Below are positions 15,927 to 39,011 of a stretch of 64,000 nucleotides of DNA, one piece after another. The notes beneath the pieces are model-generated. The model saw nothing but the letters and a program-made list of their open reading frames with translations. It ran no database searches and was not told the DNA's origin. Origin of the DNA: Phytomonospora endophytica (GTDB taxonomy: Bacteria; Actinomycetota; Actinomycetes; Mycobacteriales; Micromonosporaceae); the NCBI RefSeq assembly GCF_014202425.1, contig NZ_JACHGT010000001.1, positions 103,160-167,159 on the forward strand, given 5' to 3'. Position 1 is the first letter of the stretch; every line of letters starts with the position of its first letter. The translations under genes and the position numbers were made by a program.

Positions 15927-17360
15927 TCAGGCGCGCGGGGTCGTCGGCGAGTCCAGCCAGGCGTCGATGAAGGCGGTCATGTCCTCGCCCGCGTACTCGC
16001 TCACCCAGGCGGTGAACGACGCCCGGTCCTGGGTCGTGTTGCGCTGCTTCTGCACCCAGTCGCGCAGCATCGCGTCGAACTTCTCCGGCCCCATCTCGCC
16101 GCGCAGCCCGTGCAGCATCAGCGCGGTGCAGAAGTACACGTTGCCCGAGGCGAAGGCGCCGGGATCGTAGTCGCCGGGCGGACCGTACTCGTCGCGCATG
16201 CGCTGGTCCGCGCCCGACCAGACCGCGACCGCGTCCGCCTCGGTGAGCATGCCCTGGTCGACGGCCCACATCGCCTCGGCGTAGGTCGCCACGCTCTCGT
16301 TGAGCCACACGTCGCGCCAGTCGCGCGGTGAGACGGAGTCGCCGAACCACTGGTGGGCCAGTTCGTGCAGGATCACCCGGCGGTCGCCGTTTCCTCCGGC
16401 CAGGCCCGCGCTGAGGGTGATGGTGCCCTGCGTTTCCATCCCCGACCGCCCTCCGACCGCGACGATGCCGCTGTTGGGGAACGGGTACGGCCCGTACCGG
16501 CGCTCCAGCCAGGCCACGAGTTCCGGCAGCTCGGCGAAGAGCGGTTCCCACTGGGCCGCGAAGCCCGACGGGACCCACGAGACGTAGTGGACCTCCCCGG
16601 CGCGCTGCTCGTACATCTCGAAGCGGTCCACGGCGAGGGTGGTGACGTAGCTGGCGACCGGATCGGCCGAACGCCAGGTCGTGGTCGTGTACCCGTCGTC
16701 GGTCTCGGTGCCCTGGTAGACGCCGGTCGAGACGCCCGTCCAGCCTTCCGGCGTGGTGACGGTGACGTCGTAGAGGGCCTCGTCGGAGGGGTGGTCGTTG
16801 ACCGGGTACCAGGTGAAGGCGCCGAACGGCTCCTGGAAGGTCCACAGCTCGCCGTCGGCACCGGTCTGCGCGCCGATGCCTCCGGCCATGTCCTCGCGCC
16901 GGGCGGGAGCGGGAACCGGTGCGGGCACACCGTTGTAGGCGACGGTCACCACGATGTCGCGGTCCTTGACGACGGCCGCGGTCAGCACGAGGTCGTCGCC
17001 TTCGCGTGCGGCGGGCGCAGCGACCCCGTCCACCGTGGACTCGGTCACGGTCAGGCCGGCGGCCAGGTCGAGACGCAGTTCGCCGGCGTCGTGGACCGGG
17101 CGGATCGTGAGCTCGGCGAGTCCGTTGAGGACGCGGTCGCCGGGGACATAGGTGAGCGCCAGCCCGTAGTGCAGGACGTCGATGCCTGGGTTGCCCTGCT
17201 GCGGGTACAGCGGGTCGGTGACGGGTTCGCTGCGTCCGGCCGACAGCTCCGACGGCGGTTCGGGCGCCGGCGGAGACGGCGGCGGCTCGGGGGAGGTGCA
17301 GGCCGAAAGGCCCACGGCCAAGGCGACCGTCAGCGCCAGGGGTGTCGTCCGCGCTCGCAT
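15927..17360 (-). CDS. M1-family metallopeptidase lipoprotein
   Basis: 477 residues. A lipoprotein signal peptide with lipobox LSAC (Cys21) is followed by a Pro-rich linker, the M1 beta-sandwich and the gluzincin catalytic domain: zinc motif HELAHQWFGD (His332 and His336) and the third ligand in WLNESVATY. The GxMEN substrate-binding motif reads GMETQ (307-311). The protein is much shorter than PepN (~850), so the C-terminal domain is absent. It is probably anchored outside the membrane and trims exogenous peptides. The start is 19 bp after the stop of its close paralogue, so both are in one operon. GGGGAG precedes the ATG. Confidence 0.88.
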   Translation of the reverse strand: MRARTTPLALTVALAVGLSACTSPEPPPSPPAPEPPSELSAGRSEPVTDPLYPQQGNPGIDVLHYGLALTYVPGDRVLNGLAELTIRPVHDAGELRLDLAAGLTVTESTVDGVAAPAAREGDDLVLTAAVVKDRDIVVTVAYNGVPAPVPAPARREDMAGGIGAQTGADGELWTFQEPFGAFTWYPVNDHPSDEALYDVTVTTPEGWTGVSTGVYQGTETDDGYTTTTWRSADPVASYVTTLAVDRFEMYEQRAGEVHYVSWVPSGFAAQWEPLFAELPELVAWLERRYGPYPFPNSGIVAVGGRSGMETQGTITLSAGLAGGNGDRRVILHELAHQWFGDSVSPRDWRDVWLNESVATYAEAMWAVDQGMLTEADAVAVWSGADQRMRDEYGPPGDYDPGAFASGNVYFCTALMLHGLRGEMGPEKFDAMLRDWVQKQRNTTQDRASFTAWVSEYAGEDMTAFIDAWLDSPTTPRA

Positions 17361-17379
17361 GTCTCCCCGTTCCCGCCGG

Positions 17380-18840
17380 TCACCGTGGAGTCGTCGGTGA
17401 GTCCAGCCACTCGTCGATCAGCCCGGTCAGGTCCTCACCGGCGTACTGGTTGACCCAGGCGGTGAAGCTCTCGCGGTCCTGCTGGGTGTTGGGCTGCTTC
17501 TGGACCCAGTCGCGCATCATCTCGGTGAAGCGGGACTCACCGATCTTCGTGCGGATCTCGTACATCATCAGCGCGGTGCAGATGTACACGTTGGACGACG
17601 CGAACTGCCGGGCGTCGTACTGCCCGGGCGGGCCGGCCTCGTCGCGGAGGATCTGGTCGGCCGAGCGCCAGTTCTCCACGACCTCGCGTTCGGTCGTGAA
17701 GCCCTGGTCGGCGTTCCACATGTCCTCGATGTAGGTCGCCATCGACTCGTTGAGCCACACCCCGCGCCAGTCGACGGGCGTGACGGCGTCGCCGAACCAC
17801 TGATGGGCCAGCTCGTGCACCATCACGCTCTCGATCAGCTCCGGGCCCATCGTGCCGAGGGCCGAGCTGAAGGTGATCATCTCCTGCGTCTCCATCGCCG
17901 ACTCCCCGCCGACGAGCACGACACCCGCCGCGTCGAAGGGGTAGGGGCCGTAGCGTTCGGCGATGTAGGCGATGTGTTCGGGCATCTTGCGCAGCGGGGC
18001 CTCGAACTCGCGCATGCTCTCCCGTGGGATCCACGCGGTGATCGGCAGCTCGTTCGGGCCGGTCATCTCGATCTTCTCGAACTCGTCTACGGCCAGCGTG
18101 GTCAGGTAGCTCGCGACCGGATCGGCGGAGTGCCAGGTGAAGACGGTCCGGTCGCCGTCGGGCGCCTCGCCCATGAAGCGGCCGCTGGCCACGCCGGACC
18201 AGCCCTCGGGGACCGCGACGGTGATGTCGTAGAGGGCCTCGTCGGAGGGGTGGTCGTTGACGGGGTACCAGGTGAAGGCGCCGTAGGGCTCCTGCATCGT
18301 CCACAGGGAACCGTCGGACTCGGGCCGCATGCCGAGGCCGTCGTCGAAGTCCGAGCGCGTCGTCGGCGCGGGCGCCTGCTCGGGAACGCCCTCGTAGACG
18401 ACGGTGAGGACGGCCTGCGCCTCGGCGGCGAGGGAGGCGTCGAAGGTGACGTCGTGGCCGGACTGGCTCGCGGTGACCGGCGTGCCGTCCAGAGTGGCCT
18501 CGCCGACCCTGAGGTTGTCGGCGAAGTCGAGACGGAGTCCGTCGACGGCCCGCACGGCCCGCAGGGTGATCGTCGCGGTGCCGGCGAGGACGGAGGTCGT
18601 GGGGTCGTAGTCGAGGGCGAGTCCGTAGTGGAGGACGTCGACGTCGGCGTTGCCGTAGTCGGGGTACAGCGGGTCGGCGACGGGTTCGCTGCGGCCGGCC
18701 GACAGGTCGGCGGGGATGTCCGGCTGCTGCGACGGGGACCCGATGGGCGGGTTCACGTGCGGCGCGGGTGTGCAGGCGGCGAGGACACCGAGCCCGGCGA
18801 GAGCGCCGACGGCGCCGCGGATGATTCGTCGCCGGACCAT
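17380..18840 (-). CDS. M1-family metallopeptidase lipoprotein, tandem paralogue
   Basis: 486 residues. A basic n-region, then a hydrophobic segment ending at lipobox LAAC (Cys23). The rest aligns throughout with the downstream copy, including LSAGRSEPVADPLYP, the zinc motif HELAHQWFGD, WLNESMATY and the terminal DSPTTPR. The MEN motif is again altered (SAMETQ). The ATG at 18840 has GGGG 7 bp upstream; a GTG two codons earlier (18846) is also possible. The order and the 19-bp gap show a tandem duplication that has diverged, perhaps toward different peptide specificity. Confidence 0.88.
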   Translation of the reverse strand: MVRRRIIRGAVGALAGLGVLAACTPAPHVNPPIGSPSQQPDIPADLSAGRSEPVADPLYPDYGNADVDVLHYGLALDYDPTTSVLAGTATITLRAVRAVDGLRLDFADNLRVGEATLDGTPVTASQSGHDVTFDASLAAEAQAVLTVVYEGVPEQAPAPTTRSDFDDGLGMRPESDGSLWTMQEPYGAFTWYPVNDHPSDEALYDITVAVPEGWSGVASGRFMGEAPDGDRTVFTWHSADPVASYLTTLAVDEFEKIEMTGPNELPITAWIPRESMREFEAPLRKMPEHIAYIAERYGPYPFDAAGVVLVGGESAMETQEMITFSSALGTMGPELIESVMVHELAHQWFGDAVTPVDWRGVWLNESMATYIEDMWNADQGFTTEREVVENWRSADQILRDEAGPPGQYDARQFASSNVYICTALMMYEIRTKIGESRFTEMMRDWVQKQPNTQQDRESFTAWVNQYAGEDLTGLIDEWLDSPTTPR

Positions 18841-18960
18841 GTCCACCCCACTATTTCCGATGCCGTGACGGATGGCGAGTGTAACCAGCGGCGTCGAGAG
18901 CGTGGGGGCGGCGGATCGAAGGACGTCGAAGGCCGACCGTTCGGTCAGCGGGGGAGACTC

Positions 18961-28178: not shown

Positions 28179-30118
28179 AGTCCTTCGCGATCAGCGCCCG
28201 CCTGCTCAAGGGCGCCGGTCGCCACGGCCTGCTCGGGACGGCCTTGACGGTCGTCGCGGTCGCCGTGTCCACGATGCTGCTGCTGTCGGCGCTCGCCGCC
28301 AACGGCGCCTTCGCGTCCCGCGCCGAACGCACCGCCTGGCAGACGCCCCAGCCCAGCACGAAGGCGTCGGCGTCGGCGGTGATGAGCAGCCGCGTCGAGT
28401 ACATCCGTGACCAGCCCATCACCGTCATCAGCCTCGCCGCCCTCGGCGCGAGCGCGCCGGTCCCGCCCGGACTGTCCGCCTTCCCGAAGCCCGGCGAGTT
28501 CTACGCCTCGCCCGCCCTGACCGAACTCCTCGGCTCGACGCCCGCCGACCAACTCGCCCAGCGCTTCCCGGCCCTCAGCGGCGAAGTCGGCCGCGACGCC
28601 CTCGGCGGTCCCGGCCAGCTCGTCGCCGTCCTCGGCCTGGAGGCGGGGGACCCGCGACTGGCGGTCTCGGACGAGCCGCCCTTCGACCCGGAGACGGCAC
28701 CGGCGTACATCGCCGACTTCAGCGGCACCACCTCGGTCAACGCCTCCATCTACGACCTGCTGCTCAAGATGGCCACCGCGATGGTCGTGGCGCCGCTGCT
28801 CATCTTCGGCGCGGCCGCCGCCCGGCTCACCGTCGCCCGCCGGGACACGCGACTGGCCGCCCTGCGGCTGATCGGCGCGACACCCGGGCAGGTCGTCGCG
28901 ATGACGGTCGCCGAGGCCGTGCTCACCGCCGCCGTCGGGGCCGTGCTGGGGGCGCTCGTCTACGCGGCCGGGTTCGCCGGTCTGGCGCAGATCCCGATGC
29001 AGGGTGATTCCTGGTTCACCTCGGACCTGTGGGTCGGTCCACTGTGGCTGCTCGGGGTTCTGGTGGCCGTGCCCTTGCTGACCGGTTTCAGCGCCGTGGT
29101 CGGTCTGCGCCGGGTCGTGGTGAGTCCTCTCGGTGTCGCGCAACGCCAGACCCCTCCCGGCATCCGCGCCGTCAGACTCATCGCACTGGCCGCCGCGCTC
29201 GTCGCCGCCTCGCTGGTCACGGCCGGCGCCGGGGCCATGGTCATCATGGTGGTCCTCGGTGCGGTCTTCCTGGCGATCAACCTGGTCGGGCCGTGGGTCG
29301 TCGGCATCATCGGCCGCATCAGCGCGGCCTTCGCCAGAGGTCCCGCCCGGCTGCTCGCCGCGCGCAGACTCGTCGACGACCCACGCGCCGCCTGGCGCAC
29401 GGTCGCCGGGGTCGCGCTGACCGGCTTCGTCGCGGGCTTCGTCGGCCTGCTCAGCCCGGGTGTCCTGGACGACGAGGTGGGCGACCGCACCGTCATCAGC
29501 GTCCCGGCCGGCGACGCCACCGCCGCCGAACTCACCGCCGGACTGGCCGCCGCGGGTGTCCCCGCCGAGGTCACCGTCGAGGACCCGGACGCCAAGGAGA
29601 CGACGCTACTGGTCGCCGTCGACAAGGACGTCACGACCGTCGACCGCGCCAAGACGGCGCTCGCGACGCTCGTGCCCGGCCAGGTCGGCATCTCCGACGC
29701 CGACATCGTCCACGAGGGACGGATCCTTCTCGGCGACATCCAGGTCGGTGTGCGGATCGTGCTGATCGTGTCCTTCATGGTGGCCATCGCGAGCGCCGGG
29801 ATCGCCAGCGCCTCCTCGATCCTCGACCGCAGGCGGACCTACGGCCTCCTGCGCCTGGCGGGCACCCCGCTGAAGGTCCTCAACCATGCCCGCTCGATCG
29901 AGACGAGGATCCCGCTGCTCGTCATGGGCGGCGGCGCCATCGCCGCCGGAATCCTCTGCGGCCTGCCCTTCGCCGCCGCCGGAGTGTTCAGCCCGACGGG
30001 ACTGATCACCCTGACCGTCTGCGTGGTTCTCGGCTTCGCAGGAGTCCTCGCCGCCAGCGCCCTAAGCCGCCCCCTACTCAACTCGGTCACCGGAACCCTG
30101 ACGCCAAGCCCGGACTAA
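28175..30118 (+). CDS. FtsX-like ABC permease
   Basis: 647 residues. An N-terminal helix (LGTALTVVAVAVSTMLLLSALA) is followed by an extracytoplasmic domain of ~150 residues, then two FtsX-type bundles. The first has the segment ARRDTRLAALRLIGATPGQV; the second is the C-terminal block with DRRRTYGLLRLAGTPLKVL, each including membrane helices. It starts at a GTG in the GTGA overlap with the ATPase. Together with the ATPase and small peptide it forms an operon divergent from the two-component system, a layout typical of antimicrobial-peptide resistance modules; the substrate is unproven. Confidence 0.9.
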   Translation: MKSFAISARLLKGAGRHGLLGTALTVVAVAVSTMLLLSALAANGAFASRAERTAWQTPQPSTKASASAVMSSRVEYIRDQPITVISLAALGASAPVPPGLSAFPKPGEFYASPALTELLGSTPADQLAQRFPALSGEVGRDALGGPGQLVAVLGLEAGDPRLAVSDEPPFDPETAPAYIADFSGTTSVNASIYDLLLKMATAMVVAPLLIFGAAAARLTVARRDTRLAALRLIGATPGQVVAMTVAEAVLTAAVGAVLGALVYAAGFAGLAQIPMQGDSWFTSDLWVGPLWLLGVLVAVPLLTGFSAVVGLRRVVVSPLGVAQRQTPPGIRAVRLIALAAALVAASLVTAGAGAMVIMVVLGAVFLAINLVGPWVVGIIGRISAAFARGPARLLAARRLVDDPRAAWRTVAGVALTGFVAGFVGLLSPGVLDDEVGDRTVISVPAGDATAAELTAGLAAAGVPAEVTVEDPDAKETTLLVAVDKDVTTVDRAKTALATLVPGQVGISDADIVHEGRILLGDIQVGVRIVLIVSFMVAIASAGIASASSILDRRRTYGLLRLAGTPLKVLNHARSIETRIPLLVMGGGAIAAGILCGLPFAAAGVFSPTGLITLTVCVVLGFAGVLAASALSRPLLNSVTGTLTPSPD

Positions 30119-31480
30119 CGCCGGGCGACCCGGCCCCCGCCGCCCGCCCTCGCCCCCACCGCCACCCCACCGGCGGCGGGGGCAGGACGGGTTGGCCGCG
30201 CCGGACAGACGCTCGCGCGCGCCTGCCCGCTTCCCACGCCGCCGTCACCCGCCTCGGCCTGCGAAACCGCCGCTCTCACCGCCACCAGCGACTTCGAGCG
30301 GCGAACACGGCCCCACGACACGGCAGCGGCGAGCTTCCCCGCCGCAGTGTCCCCACCGGGCTCCGGCCTTACCCGCCGCGCCCCACGGATGCATACACCG
30401 CCAGACGAGTCTGCCAAGTTCGCCGCCGCAGCTGCCTGGCGCTGACGCCAGTGCCAACCGCCCTCCACGACATGGCAGCACCGAGGCCCTCGCCCCCGCC
30501 CGCTTCCCTCGCCGCCGTCACCGCCTCGGGGTGCGAAACCGCCGCTGTCACCGCCACTGGCGACTTCGAGCGGCGAACACGGCCCCACGACACGGCAGCG
30601 GCGAGCTTCCCCGCCGCAGTGTCCCCACCGGGCTCCGGCCTTACCCGCCGCGCCCCACGGATGCATACACCGCCAGCCGAGACGGCCGAGCTCCCCGCCG
30701 CAGCTGCCCGGCGCTGACGCCCTTGCCAACCCCCGCCGCGCGACACCGACGCCAGTGCCAACCGCCGCCGCCCGCTTCCCTCGCCGCCGCGTGACACCGA
30801 CGCCCTCGCCCCGCCCGCGCCCGCTTCTCACACCGCCGTCACCCGCTTCGGCGTGAGAAGCCGCTGCCCTCGCCGCCACCGGCGACTTTGAGCGGCGGCC
30901 ACGGCCCCCACGACACGGCAGCCCTGACCTTCCCGCGCCCGCTTCCTCGCCACCGTCACCCGCCTCGGCGTGCGAAACCGCCGCTTTCACCGCCACCAGC
31001 GACTTCGAGCGGCGAACACGCCCCCACGACACGGCGGCGGGCTTCCCCGCCGCAGCGCTCCGACCCGGCTCCGGCCTCACCCACCGCGACCCACGGATGC
31101 ATACACCGCCAGACGAGATGGCCAAGCTCGCCGCCGCAGCTGCCCGGCGCTGACGTCCCCGCCGCCGCCCGTTCCCCCGCCGCCGTCACCCGCCTCAGCG
31201 TGCGAAACCGCCGCCACCGGCAACATCGAGCCACGAAGACGCCCGCCCACGGGACGGAATCCGTGGGCTTCCCGCAGCAGCGTCACCACCACCACCGGCG
31301 GCGGCGGGGCGGCCGCGCAACACCGACGCGCTCGCCCCACCCGCTCCGCCGTCAGCGTCACCTGCCTCGGTGTGCGAAACCGCCGCCACCGGCGACTTCC
31401 AGCGGCGAAGACCTCCGCCCACAGCTCGGCAGCGGCGGGCTTCCCGCCGCAGTGGCGGCACGGGCTTCGGTCATGTGCGC
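30119..31480. repeat. Cluster of degenerate ~270-bp repeats without a convincing gene
   Basis: A core of about 45 bp, containing GTCACCCGCCTCGGCGTGCG followed by AAACCGCCGC and then ACCGGCGACTTCGAGCGGCG, recurs six times, starting near 30229, 30501, 30822, 30940, 31169 and 31341. Three copies also carry a second block with CCACGGATGCATACACCGCC (30384, 30655 and 31092), followed by a third block near GCAGCTGCCCGGCGCTGACG. All copies share one orientation. Spacing is irregular (272, 321, 118, 229 and 172 bp). Long open frames exist on both strands, but only because the tract is C-rich and T-poor. The permease gene upstream ends in a weak 6-bp hairpin (30120-30134). Confidence 0.75.
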
Positions 31481-32600
31481 TCACCGCCGGTGCACGCGCG
31501 GACGCGCTCTGCCGGACGACGCCGGCAGCTTCCACCGGACCGGCCCAGCGTGGGGACGCCGGTCCCGGGGCCTCGGACGGACGCGATCGGCTTGGGGGCG
31601 AGCTGCCCGCTGCCACCGCGATGCGGGTGCACGCGTCCGGATGAGACTCAGCTGGAGAGGCCACGTGGGAACGCTGGTCCCGTCGCTTCGGGCCAGCAGG
31701 AGCGATGGGGAGGCGAGTTGCCGTCGCGGCTGCGTTCGTCGCCGGAGTCGTACGGTGCCGCCGCTGTGGCCACGTGCTGTGCTCGTCCGCCATGGACGGG
31801 AGCCTGCTCCAGCGGTCCGCCCGAGTGCTCTGCGCGGCTGCCGGATCTCAAGGCCCCTGGACAAGTGACATCCCGTGGGCGTTTGAGTCGCCTTCCGGAG
31901 TCCGCGTGCTGGGCTTTCCGGGCCTCGGCCACCGGTCGTCCGCCAGCAGGCCGGGCCTCGAACTCGCACGAGCGGCGGACCGGTTGAGGCCTCTGCCGTT
32001 GCCGCCGGGGCCCCTGCGGCGTCAGCTGCTCCTGGCCGACGCCGTGTCTGTCCACCGTGGACGAGGACCGTTTCGAGCCTTCCGCCGTGGCGCACCAGCT
32101 CGGCTGCCGCTCCTGCGCCTTGGCAGGACTTCGCGCCTTTGGCCGCCCGAGGCGGGTTCTGGAGCAGCAGGGCAGGGTCGGGCCTCCGCCGGCCCGGCCA
32201 GCGAGGCTGCCGTTTCCACGGCCGTCGACGCCTTGCCGTGCGCATCTGAGAAGACTCCGGAGCCTGCTGCTCGCGGCTCCGGGTTTCAGTCGCCCGCCGC
32301 CTGCTCCCCGTGGGCACCGATATCGCGTGAGCGGCGTGCGGCGGCTTCCGCCGCTGCCCCTGGTGCTGTTGCGGTGTTCGCCCGCTTCGTAGCCGTCGGC
32401 GGGTTCTCGCCGAAGTGGCCCACTGAGGCTGCTGCACCTGTGGCCCTAAGCGGACGCCGAAGTCACACGAGCGCCGTGCGGGCAGGGGCGTGCTGCCGCC
32501 ATCGCCGGTGCTGCGCGGCGCGGTGTGCCGACTGCTTCGCCTGGCCGGCTCCCTACGGCGAACCGGAGCCTGTCCAGCGCCCCGCCCGGCCTCAACCCCC
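31481..32600. other. Gene-free, GC-rich tract of unknown role
   Basis: No frame here shows a recognisable domain, an acceptable start with a ribosome-binding site, or actinomycete third-position GC periodicity. The longest frames (337 residues on plus, 377 on minus) are Arg/Pro-rich and overlap each other. An 8-bp hairpin lies at 32257-32282. It may be decayed sequence between the convergent permease and methyltransferase genes. Confidence 0.5.
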
Positions 32601-33626
32601 TCACCCCTCCCCACCCGCCGGCACCACGGCCACCGTCACCCACTGCACGACCGTCGCCAGGAACGGCCCCGCCTTCAACGCACCAAGCCACTCCTCGCCG
32701 TCGTCGGGCGTCATGTAGCCCGCGTCCACGGCCCGTCGTGTCGTCCGCTGGAACCCGAAGATCTGGTCGGCGGTGTGGGGGTCGCGGAAGGTGGGCGTCA
32801 CGGGGATCACGGTCGGTACGTCGAAGCCCGCGTTCTCGGCCAGGCGGTGCAGTTGCCGGCCGATGGTCGGGTTGCGGATGACCTTCTCGACCACGAAACG
32901 GGTGTACGCCGTCGCCAGCTCCGGTCTCGGGTGGTCGATCGCGAGTGTCTCCCAGTCGGGCTCGCCGGTCACGAGGCGGCCGCCGGGACGGAGTACGCGC
33001 ATCGCCTCGGCGAGCACCACCGTGGGGTCGTCGACGTGTTGCAGTACGCGGTCGGTGCGGACGCGGTCCACTGTGGACTCGGCGAAGGGCAGGGCGTGGG
33101 CGTCGCCGTGGACGACGTCCAGTCCGGTGCGGGCGGCGGCTGTCGCGGCCATGTCCGGGTCGCTGTCGAGGCCGATGACGTGGGCGGCGGCCGCGGCCAT
33201 CGCCGGGAGGTCGGCGCCGGTGCCACAGCCGAGGTCGAGAACCGTGTGGGTGGGGCCGATGTCGAGGGCGTCGAGGAGCAGCGGCTTGTAGGCGCGCCCG
33301 GCCTCGGAGGCGGCGGCCCTGTCCAGGTACTCGGCGCGCCCCGGCGCGCTGGCCTCGAACACCTGCGACATGGCGCGCAGTCCCCGGTCGAGTTCGGCGC
33401 GTCCGGCGTCGGTCAGGCGCATCGGCCGACGGCGAGCCGTGGCGGCACCCGCGCTGTCGGGCTCGACGAGCCCCTTGCCTTCGAGCCGGGACAGGGCGCC
33501 GTAGAGACTGCCCTGGCCCAGCCGCTCGCCCGCCGTCCGTTCGATGGCCGCGTTGACGGCGTAGCCGTGCAGGGGACCGTCGGCGAGCGCCGATAGCACG
33601 AGGAACTGCGCGTCGTTGGTTCGCAT
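32601..33626 (-). CDS. PadR-type winged-helix domain fused to a class I SAM methyltransferase
   Basis: 341 residues. Residues ~1-95 are a PadR-like winged helix (FLVLSALADGPLHGYAV, QGSLYGALSRLEGKGLV, RRRPMRLTDAGRAEL). From about residue 105 a Rossmann methyltransferase follows, with motif I VLDLGCGTGADL, acidic loop GLDSDPDM, and post-motifs VHGDAHALPF and RVLRPGGRLV, resembling UbiE/Methyltransf_11. The frame is continuous, so this is a true fusion: a DNA-binding domain joined to a small-molecule methyltransferase. Substrate and target promoters are unknown. The ATG at 33626 lies 23 bp after the pepN stop, suggesting co-transcription. Both halves are close to normal length. Confidence 0.85.
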   Translation of the reverse strand: MRTNDAQFLVLSALADGPLHGYAVNAAIERTAGERLGQGSLYGALSRLEGKGLVEPDSAGAATARRRPMRLTDAGRAELDRGLRAMSQVFEASAPGRAEYLDRAAASEAGRAYKPLLLDALDIGPTHTVLDLGCGTGADLPAMAAAAAHVIGLDSDPDMAATAAARTGLDVVHGDAHALPFAESTVDRVRTDRVLQHVDDPTVVLAEAMRVLRPGGRLVTGEPDWETLAIDHPRPELATAYTRFVVEKVIRNPTIGRQLHRLAENAGFDVPTVIPVTPTFRDPHTADQIFGFQRTTRRAVDAGYMTPDDGEEWLGALKAGPFLATVVQWVTVAVVPAGGEG

Positions 33627-33649
33627 CCGCGCATAGTACGCGGCGCGTA

Positions 33650-36166
33650 CTACGGGTGCTGCACCCGAATGGCGCGGCTCAGCTCGTCGCGGCCCTCGGT
33701 CACCAGGCGCCGCAGGTGGGCGGGCCGGCCGGGCTCGGCGAGCCAGGCGTCGATGGCCTCGACCGTCGCGGCCTCGGCGGGCAGGAACGGCGTCGTGTGC
33801 CCGAGTTCGGAGGCGCGTTCGAGTTGCCCGGCGGCGGCGAGCTCACCGATCAGGTCCAGCATCCGCAGCACGTACGGCCGCAGCACCTCCGGCTCGCCAC
33901 CCCGCCAGAACCCGGCGAGCGTCGCCCGCTGCAGGCGCGTCGGCGCGTCCAGCGGCGCGATCGCCGCCCAGGCGACGGCCTTGTCGACGGCGTCGGGCAA
34001 GGTGGCCCGCGCGGTCACGGCGCTGTCGCGGCCCGAGGTCGTGTCGTCGCGCGCGACTTCGGCGTCGATCGCCGCCGAGTCGATCGCGCCCGACGCTGCC
34101 AGGCCGCTCAGCAGCGTCCACCGGACACCCGCGTCGAGCGTCAGCCCCTCGGGCACGTCCACGCCCTCAAGCCACCCGCGCATGCGCGCGACGTCGGCCT
34201 CGCCATGTGCGTTGGCCGCATACGACTTCAGCCACGTCAGCTGCGCCCCACCGCCCGCGGGCACCGTCCCGATCGCCCCCAGGGACGCCGCCGCGACCAG
34301 CTCCCGCGCGGCCGCGCGCTCGCCCTCGGGCGTGTACCAGTGCAGCGCGAAGTCGGTGAACCGCCGCATGATCGACAGGATCCCGGCGTGCGACTCGCCG
34401 GGCAGGCACGTCGCCACGAGCCGCAGGAAGTCCGCGGCGGGCATCGTCCCGTCCCGCAGCATGTTCCACGCCGTCGACCAGCACAGCGCACGCGGCAGCG
34501 ACTCGGTGAACGCGTTCATGTGCGCGGACACCGTCGCCAGCGTCCGTTCGTCCAGGTGCGTCTTGGCGTAGGTCAGGTCGTCGTCGTTGAGCAGCAGCAC
34601 GTCGGGCTGCCGTTCGCCGACGAGTTCGGGCACCTCGGTGCGCTCGCCCGACACGTCCAGCTCGATCCGCCGGCGCCGGGTCAGCACGCCGTCGGCGAGG
34701 TCGTAGAGGCCGACCGCCATGCGGTGCGTCCGCAACGTCGGCCCTTCCTCGGGCGCGGTCTGCACCACCGCGAAGGTGGCGTAGTCGCCGTCGGCGAGCG
34801 TGAAATCGGCCGTCAGCGTGTTGACCTCGACGGTCTCCAGCCACCGCGCCGACCACTCCCCGAGGTCGCGGCCCGACGCGGTCTCCAGCGCCTCGCGCAG
34901 GTCGGCGAACCCGGCGACGTCCCACTGGTGCTTCTCGAAGTACTCGTGCAGCCCGGCGAGGAAACCTTCGAGGCCGACATAGGCGACGAGCTGCTTGAGC
35001 ACGCCCGCGCCCTTGCTGTAGGTGATCGCGTCGTAGTTGGCGCGGCCGGCGGCGACGTCGGGGATCTCGGCGCGGATCGGGTGCGTCGTCGACAGCTGGT
35101 CCTGCCGGGTCGCGCTGTTCTTCCCGCCGACCTGGAAGGTCGTCCACGCCTGGCCGAAGCGCGTCGCCTCGGCCGTCGCCCAGTACCCGGCCCAGGTCGC
35201 GAAGGACTCCTTGAGCCACAGCTCGTCCCACCAGGCCATCGTCACGAGATCGCCGAACCACATGTGCGCCATCTCGTGGTACATCACGTAGGCCCGGAAC
35301 TCCCGCTCGGCGTCGGTGACCTGCGAGCGGAACACGAAGTACTCCTCGGCGAAGGTCACCGCGCCGAAGTGCTCGGTGGCGCCGGAGTTGTACTCGGCGG
35401 CGGCGACCTGGTCGTACTTGCCGAGTGGGTAGCGCACGCCGAAGTTGGTGTTGAAGTGGTCGAGACCGGCCTTGGTGAGGGCGAACAGCTCCTCGGACTC
35501 CAGGTGCCCCGCCATCGACCGGCGGCAGTAGAGACCCAGGTCGATGCCGTCGTGGGTGTCGCGGACCTCGTGGTACGGCCCCGCGCACAGCGACGTGATG
35601 TAGGTGCTCATGCGCGGGCTGACGGCGAAGGCGACGGTGCGGGTGTCGTCGGCGGCGACGTCGGAGACCCCGGACATGTTCCCGATGGCCCGCCAGTGCG
35701 CGGGCATGGTCACGGTCAGCGCGAAGGTCGCCTTCAGGTCGGGCTGGTCGAAGCACGCGTACATCAGCTGCGCGCCGTTGGACTCGAAGTGCGTGTACAG
35801 GTACGCCTCGCCGTCGACCGGGTCGACGAGCCGGTGCAGGCCCTGTCCGTCGCGCGAGTAGCGGCACGTCGCGTCGACGACGAGGAGGTTGTCGGCGGCC
35901 AGCCCGGGCAGGCGCAGCCCGGCCTCGGGGGAGTAGTCCGACACGTCCACCGGCCGCCCGTTGAGGACGGCCGAGCCGATCTCGGCGGCGCCGAGCTCGA
36001 TGAAGGTCGCGGCGCCCGGCTCGGAGCACGTGAAGCGCACCTCGGTGCGGGAGCCGAACAGCTCCGCCCCCAGCGTCAGGTCGAGGCCGACGACGTAGGA
36101 GTCGACCGTCAGCAGGCGAGCCCGCTCGGCGGATTCGTCGCGGGTGAGGTTGTGCACGTGTGCCAC
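33650..36166 (-). CDS. pepN: Aminopeptidase N, M1 family, with altered GAMEN motif
   Basis: 838 residues, full PepN length. The zinc motif HEMAHMWFGD with third ligand in WLKESFATW is intact, and the ERAP1-like C-terminal domain is present. The exopeptidase motif GAMEN, which holds the substrate N-terminus, reads GATEH: the Glu is kept while Met and Asn are replaced. The neighbouring paralogue keeps GAMEN. Cytosolic (no signal peptide). The GTG at 36166 follows GGAG. It is the second of two tandem pepN genes and may feed the methyltransferase gene downstream by read-through. Confidence 0.92.
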   Translation of the reverse strand: MAHVHNLTRDESAERARLLTVDSYVVGLDLTLGAELFGSRTEVRFTCSEPGAATFIELGAAEIGSAVLNGRPVDVSDYSPEAGLRLPGLAADNLLVVDATCRYSRDGQGLHRLVDPVDGEAYLYTHFESNGAQLMYACFDQPDLKATFALTVTMPAHWRAIGNMSGVSDVAADDTRTVAFAVSPRMSTYITSLCAGPYHEVRDTHDGIDLGLYCRRSMAGHLESEELFALTKAGLDHFNTNFGVRYPLGKYDQVAAAEYNSGATEHFGAVTFAEEYFVFRSQVTDAEREFRAYVMYHEMAHMWFGDLVTMAWWDELWLKESFATWAGYWATAEATRFGQAWTTFQVGGKNSATRQDQLSTTHPIRAEIPDVAAGRANYDAITYSKGAGVLKQLVAYVGLEGFLAGLHEYFEKHQWDVAGFADLREALETASGRDLGEWSARWLETVEVNTLTADFTLADGDYATFAVVQTAPEEGPTLRTHRMAVGLYDLADGVLTRRRRIELDVSGERTEVPELVGERQPDVLLLNDDDLTYAKTHLDERTLATVSAHMNAFTESLPRALCWSTAWNMLRDGTMPAADFLRLVATCLPGESHAGILSIMRRFTDFALHWYTPEGERAAARELVAAASLGAIGTVPAGGGAQLTWLKSYAANAHGEADVARMRGWLEGVDVPEGLTLDAGVRWTLLSGLAASGAIDSAAIDAEVARDDTTSGRDSAVTARATLPDAVDKAVAWAAIAPLDAPTRLQRATLAGFWRGGEPEVLRPYVLRMLDLIGELAAAGQLERASELGHTTPFLPAEAATVEAIDAWLAEPGRPAHLRRLVTEGRDELSRAIRVQHP

Positions 36167-36324: not shown

Positions 36325-38877
<2,553 letters not shown>

Positions 38878-39011
38878 GTTGCGACTCCCTCGTGAGGTTG
38901 ATGGTCCCCGCGAGTCTGACACGATCGCTCACTGTGCGGACACCGGCCGCCGGGTGAGTGGTGGATCGAATGCGCACAGGCACCGACGTCGGCCGCGCCC
39001 ACCCCGATCGC

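Follow-up and report, generated by a model that had tools for sequence, protein, structure and literature searches.

A PadR winged-helix domain joined to a methyltransferase in Phytomonospora endophytica: a candidate autoregulator with its own enzyme attached

Introduction

Few transcription factors are fused to an active enzyme, and in the best-known group, the MocR type, the enzyme fold is retained chiefly for sensing. A gene within a 64-kb stretch of the Phytomonospora endophytica genome (hereafter the window) encodes a 341-aa protein that consists of a PadR winged helix followed by a class I SAM methyltransferase (32601..33626, minus strand). Database records label this protein only as a "methyltransferase domain-containing protein", and no published PadR-methyltransferase fusion was found in the literature searched, whose journal coverage was incomplete; as far as that literature shows, a probable PadR-family autoregulator with its own enzyme attached is a variant not previously described.

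The fusion gene and its surroundings

The gene starts with an ATG at 33626 and runs for 341 codons without interruption to a stop at 32601. A first-pass annotation had read it as two complete domains in one continuous frame, and this holds, with an open frame, Pfam matches that cover nearly the full profiles and full-length relatives in other genomes. The same annotation placed the junction near 33320 (approximately residues 100-103), where a sequencing error would have spoken against the fusion. The 16 fusion copies compared align without a change of frame and the frame is unbroken in all 16 loci, so no frameshift is involved and an error at the junction can be ruled out. Judged by their sequences, both halves look functional.

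Upstream of the fusion are two adjacent M1 aminopeptidase genes (33650-36166 and 36325-38922), the first of which has GATEH in place of the usual GAMEN exopeptidase motif that is found in the second. As the fusion lies 23 bp downstream of the nearer of these genes and on the same strand, read-through transcription is possible. Elsewhere in the window two adjacent and mutually similar genes (15927-18846) encode secreted or lipoprotein-like products with an M1-type HExxH motif. On the other side of the fusion about 2.5 kb (30118-32601) is without a convincing gene, and contains tandem repeats (30220-31035), in which a unit of 272 bp is present about 2.1 times with 88% matches and shorter arrays occur as well.

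The PadR domain

The winged helix-turn-helix domain occupies residues 10-80 (33387..33599, minus strand) and is identified by PF03551, by structure prediction with Foldseek and by alignment. The PF03551 match scores 52.9 bits against a curated cut-off of 27 and covers profile positions 1-74 of 75; the Phytomonospora genome contains 21 PadR matches above the cut-off, among which the fusion is mid-range. A winged helix was sought in the predicted structure of the N-terminal 112 aa and is present, with an order of helix-helix-helix-wing-long helix that matches the PadR structures RosR, TA0346, LmrR and Rv3488 at TM-scores of about 0.52-0.68. The model is of a monomer only, and with a pLDDT of 73 and two sequences to build on it is of moderate confidence. 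The PadR family has signature tyrosines that contact DNA (PMC6457526), and Y22 (in HGY) and Y42 (in SLY), which are assigned to these by motif and not by structural superposition, are invariant in the 16 fusions. The predicted binding of DNA by this half is well supported.

A long helix is predicted behind the wing, leading into the enzyme (residues about 73-93; 33348..33410, minus strand). In PadR-2 proteins the dimer is built by the helices that flank the winged helix-turn-helix, and ligand is bound at the dimer interface (PMC6457526). It had been proposed that in this protein an enzyme takes the place of the C-terminal helix with which PadR proteins sense, and this contrast is incomplete; as the post-wing helix is retained, the methyltransferase would seem to have been appended behind a PadR-2-like domain, with no sensing helix replaced.

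The methyltransferase domain

The second half, residues 87-341 (32604..33368, minus strand), is recognised as a class I SAM methyltransferase by PF08241, by sequence matches in the PDB, by Foldseek and by its stand-alone relatives, which start at what is residue 87-100 of the fusion. The Methyltransf_11 match (PF08241, residues 130-219) scores 80.6 bits against a cut-off of 21.2 and covers almost the entire profile, and the half contains motif I as DLGCGTG, the acidic residue D154 and a GEPDW signature. Residues D131, G133, C134, G135, G137 and D154 are invariant in the alignment of the fusions, and further conserved residues are located on the C-terminal, substrate side. Given the invariance of the SAM motif residues, catalysis by this half is likely. 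The predicted fold is that of a class I methyltransferase, with 3mgg the closest and MitM, RebM, AtmM and TleD among the Foldseek and PDB matches, and no NCBIfam equivalog reaches its cut-off among the matches listed. A role in anti-phage defence was considered and rejected, the sole PADLOC match, mad2, spanning only the generic methyltransferase core and not being meaningful.

A candidate operator within the promoter

Between the fusion and the aminopeptidase gene, and overlapping the stop codon of the latter, lies a perfect 9+1+9 dyad, TAGTACGCGCCGCGTACTA (33634..33652), which we regard as a candidate operator with the 19-bp consensus TASTACGCnnnGCGTASTA. The sequence immediately upstream of the start is GTAGTACGCGCCGCGTACTATGCGCGG-ATG, in which a -10 box, TACTAT (33633..33638, minus strand), sits at the right edge of the dyad and overlaps it; in most orthologous promoters, too, the edge of the dyad carries a TAnnAT-like -10. 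Leaderless actinobacterial transcripts have their start codon at about the distance seen here, and as the A of the ATG is seven bases past the -10 box the fusion mRNA is probably leaderless.

With up to two mismatches allowed the dyad occurs once in the 8.35-Mb Phytomonospora genome, at the promoter of the fusion itself; the reversed pattern, searched as a control, matched by chance four times on each strand. In Stackebrandtia albiflava and in three plasmid records it is likewise found only at the fusion promoter. Phytomonospora has one dyad whereas most of its relatives carry two, spaced exactly 14 bp apart. At up to three mismatches the dyad is present upstream of 16 of 16 fusion genes and absent from that position in all 65 stand-alone methyltransferases from the family (best copy with four mismatches, most with six or seven), although with few lineages in the tree this contrast equals only a few independent events. 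Several of the stand-alone methyltransferases that lack the dyad share a well-supported clade with fusions, and the dyad is also found before stand-alone PadR genes (see below), so the candidate operator, as far as its distribution tells, is one that goes with the PadR domain and not with the enzyme. Part of its conservation is accounted for by promoter constraint, given the overlap with the -10 box. Autoregulation of the fusion gene is, on this pattern of occurrence, a well supported prediction.

Eight of the 16 loci have a divergent gene for a cis-prenyl diphosphate synthase next to the fusion, and the dyads lie between the two genes. Two of these loci (8038-8320 in L129 and 8040-8270 in L130) have a TACTAT -10 box as the synthase-side edge of the dyad, followed by a leaderless ATG right behind it, and it is possible that in a branch of Streptomyces the synthase shares a regulon with the fusion. 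The Phytomonospora genome contains two cis-prenyl diphosphate synthases, which are located elsewhere, and a genome-wide search with up to two mismatches found no operator at either; with these genes lacking it, the fusion in Phytomonospora appears to regulate itself only.

Relatives of the fusion

The 15 further fusion loci come from Stackebrandtia, from two other genera of Micromonosporaceae and from Streptomyces, including its linear plasmids, where some of the relatives are close to transposases. Full-length relatives are found in Stackebrandtia albiflava at 65% identity, in ten Streptomyces plasmid records at 55% identity and in nine of 393 sampled Streptomyces species; within the Micromonosporaceae the fusion is rare, with three finds among the 354 other genomes that were searched, of which one is apparently S. 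albiflava itself. No relatives were found in viral contigs, and a reading as phage cargo was rejected on that account. Purifying selection acts on both domains, with dN/dS among Streptomyces pairs of 0.07-0.23 for the PadR part and 0.12-0.34 for the enzyme part. On a tree with few lineages the AU test neither establishes nor rejects that the fusion arose only once (p 0.134). In one locus (L151) the operators are intact and the fusion gene ends soon after the enzyme half begins, which leaves mostly the PadR domain.

The two functions also occur apart. The closest stand-alone relatives of the fused PadR domain are 103-aa Streptomyces proteins, and eight of the nine nearest are preceded by dyads 14 bp apart with a best copy of three mismatches or fewer, the ninth gene being truncated at its 5' end. 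These dyads sit between the PadR gene and, mostly, a divergent gene for a membrane protein. More distant stand-alone PadRs (L156 and L159, about 47% identity) have a looser dyad upstream with three mismatches, and another member of the group (L158) continues at its C-terminal end into a stretch that we take to be Uma2-like, probably a broken gene joined to its neighbour.

In three Streptomyces loci (L134, 6458-12723; L136, 6411-11049; L160, 5001-8400) PadR, exporter and methyltransferase are found together. Next to the PadR gene is the operator, then come a divergent gene for a membrane protein, a Drr-type ABC exporter and, in convergent orientation, a stand-alone methyltransferase from the fusion's enzyme family; all three loci adjoin a Nudix gene. 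The operator has been lost from L160, the exporter of L134 is interrupted by insertions, and remnants of the same split system are present in a further locus (L166). These loci came from wider flanks and from loci beyond a set of 45 stand-alone methyltransferase loci, in the near flanks of which no PadR was found; an unrelated-looking PadR lies about 4-5 kb from the methyltransferase in one locus (L055). By gene content and family assignment, PadR and methyltransferase functions occur both split and fused. That a 103-aa split PadR without an enzyme domain has a matching operator points to a PadR part that is probably able to sense unaided.

What the fusion may do

We think it probable that the protein is a self-repressing methyltransferase, that the repression is lifted by a small molecule, in all probability the substrate that the enzyme methylates, and that the protein provides inducible detoxification or self-protection. 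The PadR domain, as a dimer, would bind the 19-bp dyad over its own -10 box and so block transcription until this compound frees the promoter of it; enzyme would then be produced and would methylate the compound, thereby removing the signal and restoring repression. In the Streptomyces branch the putative operator would also act within the promoter of the divergent cis-prenyl diphosphate synthase gene, and in the split version a separate PadR with a matching operator is located beside a separate methyltransferase and a Drr-type ABC exporter. Both ligand and substrate we infer to be a small molecule, probably a toxic or signalling one and perhaps hydrophobic. As a rule PadR proteins respond to toxic compounds by inducing pumps or enzymes for detoxification (PMC6457526), and this habit, together with the drug-type exporter in the split loci, makes inducible detoxification of, or self-protection against, a small hydrophobic compound the likeliest role. 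The initial suggestion of a one-component switch is thus upheld as regards the fusion itself, its complete domains and the PadR-linked operator in the promoter, while the part that concerns the ligand, that the fusion senses or consumes its own, stays at plausible. A more specific form, in which the active methyltransferase domain is the sensor of the PadR repressor, substrate binding or turnover sets the occupancy of the operator and the enzyme erases its own inducer, is put forward tentatively and may well prove wrong.

Where the signal is read could differ from this. The PadR half may bind the inducer itself, in the pocket at its dimer interface, as happens in LmrR, with the enzyme tethered only so that regulator and detoxifying enzyme are produced as one, and with the enzyme pocket taking no part in sensing; the binding of ligand at this interface in PadR-2 proteins (PMC6457526) and the retention of the operator by a split 103-aa PadR that has no enzyme domain both favour such an arrangement, which nevertheless leaves the persistence of the fusion across several genera unexplained. 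We see it as a real possibility, if short of an even chance, and as a compatible variant of the self-repression reading that differs only in the site at which the signal is read. It would seem unlikely that the protein is a reporter of the SAM or SAH pool, in which DNA binding responds to either compound in the Rossmann pocket and to no other substrate. The only visible targets, the fusion gene itself and the prenyl diphosphate synthase of some Streptomyces, are not SAM-cycle genes, and residue conservation on the C-terminal, substrate side suggests a further ligand, intact though the SAM-binding motifs are.

The remaining alternatives deny the fusion its regulatory role. Natural-product O-methyltransferases commonly have an N-terminal winged helix that serves for dimerisation only, and the winged helix described here might likewise be no DNA-binding domain at all. 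We consider this very unlikely, since the Pfam match at the N terminus is to PadR and to no methyltransferase dimerisation family, none of the fusions varies in the tyrosines with which PadR proteins contact DNA, and the operator precedes all 16 fusions and stand-alone PadRs as well but none of the 65 relatives that lack a PadR domain. That the dyad belongs to another regulator, or is a conserved promoter element, with the fusion not regulating itself, gains something from its overlap with the -10 box, by which its conservation is partly promoter function; however dyads 14 bp apart are also found before stand-alone PadRs in different gene contexts and are missing before the stand-alone methyltransferases of the fusion's own clade, which makes this reading improbable.

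For the self-repressing methyltransferase that we favour, the functional-looking halves, a candidate operator that is unique in the genome and a split version that serves as a natural control make the coupling of catalysis to repression directly testable. The fusion may offer a compact inducible switch, and it could point to an unrecognised actinobacterial enzyme of small-molecule resistance or tailoring.

Comparison with known systems

The fusion shares with the PadR-2 proteins LmrR, LftR and Rv3488 a winged helix with the HGY and LY tyrosines, a post-wing helix and, if the candidate dyad is one, an operator on its own promoter, and its split version is linked to a drug-type exporter as well; the known members however have a single domain and some 100 residues, whereas in the fusion a full methyltransferase follows. 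That enzyme resembles 3mgg, MitM, RebM, AtmM and TleD in its Rossmann fold, SAM motifs and the size and order of its elements, yet none of these has a DNA-binding domain, and at only about 20% identity they are structural matches from which a substrate is not transferable. ArsR-type regulators fused to methyltransferases exist, and these too join a winged helix to a SAM methyltransferase, with ArsR in place of PadR. In the MocR/GabR proteins a GntR winged helix is joined to an aminotransferase-like domain, and the enzyme domain is described as sensory (PMC5320631). The likeness lies in a winged helix and an enzyme-fold domain within one chain, whereas the DNA-binding family and the enzyme are different and the catalytic motifs of the fusion look intact. 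With PadR and methyltransferase as its Pfam domains the fusion falls outside the MocR/GabR family, even if its mode of action may be like that of the MocR proteins.
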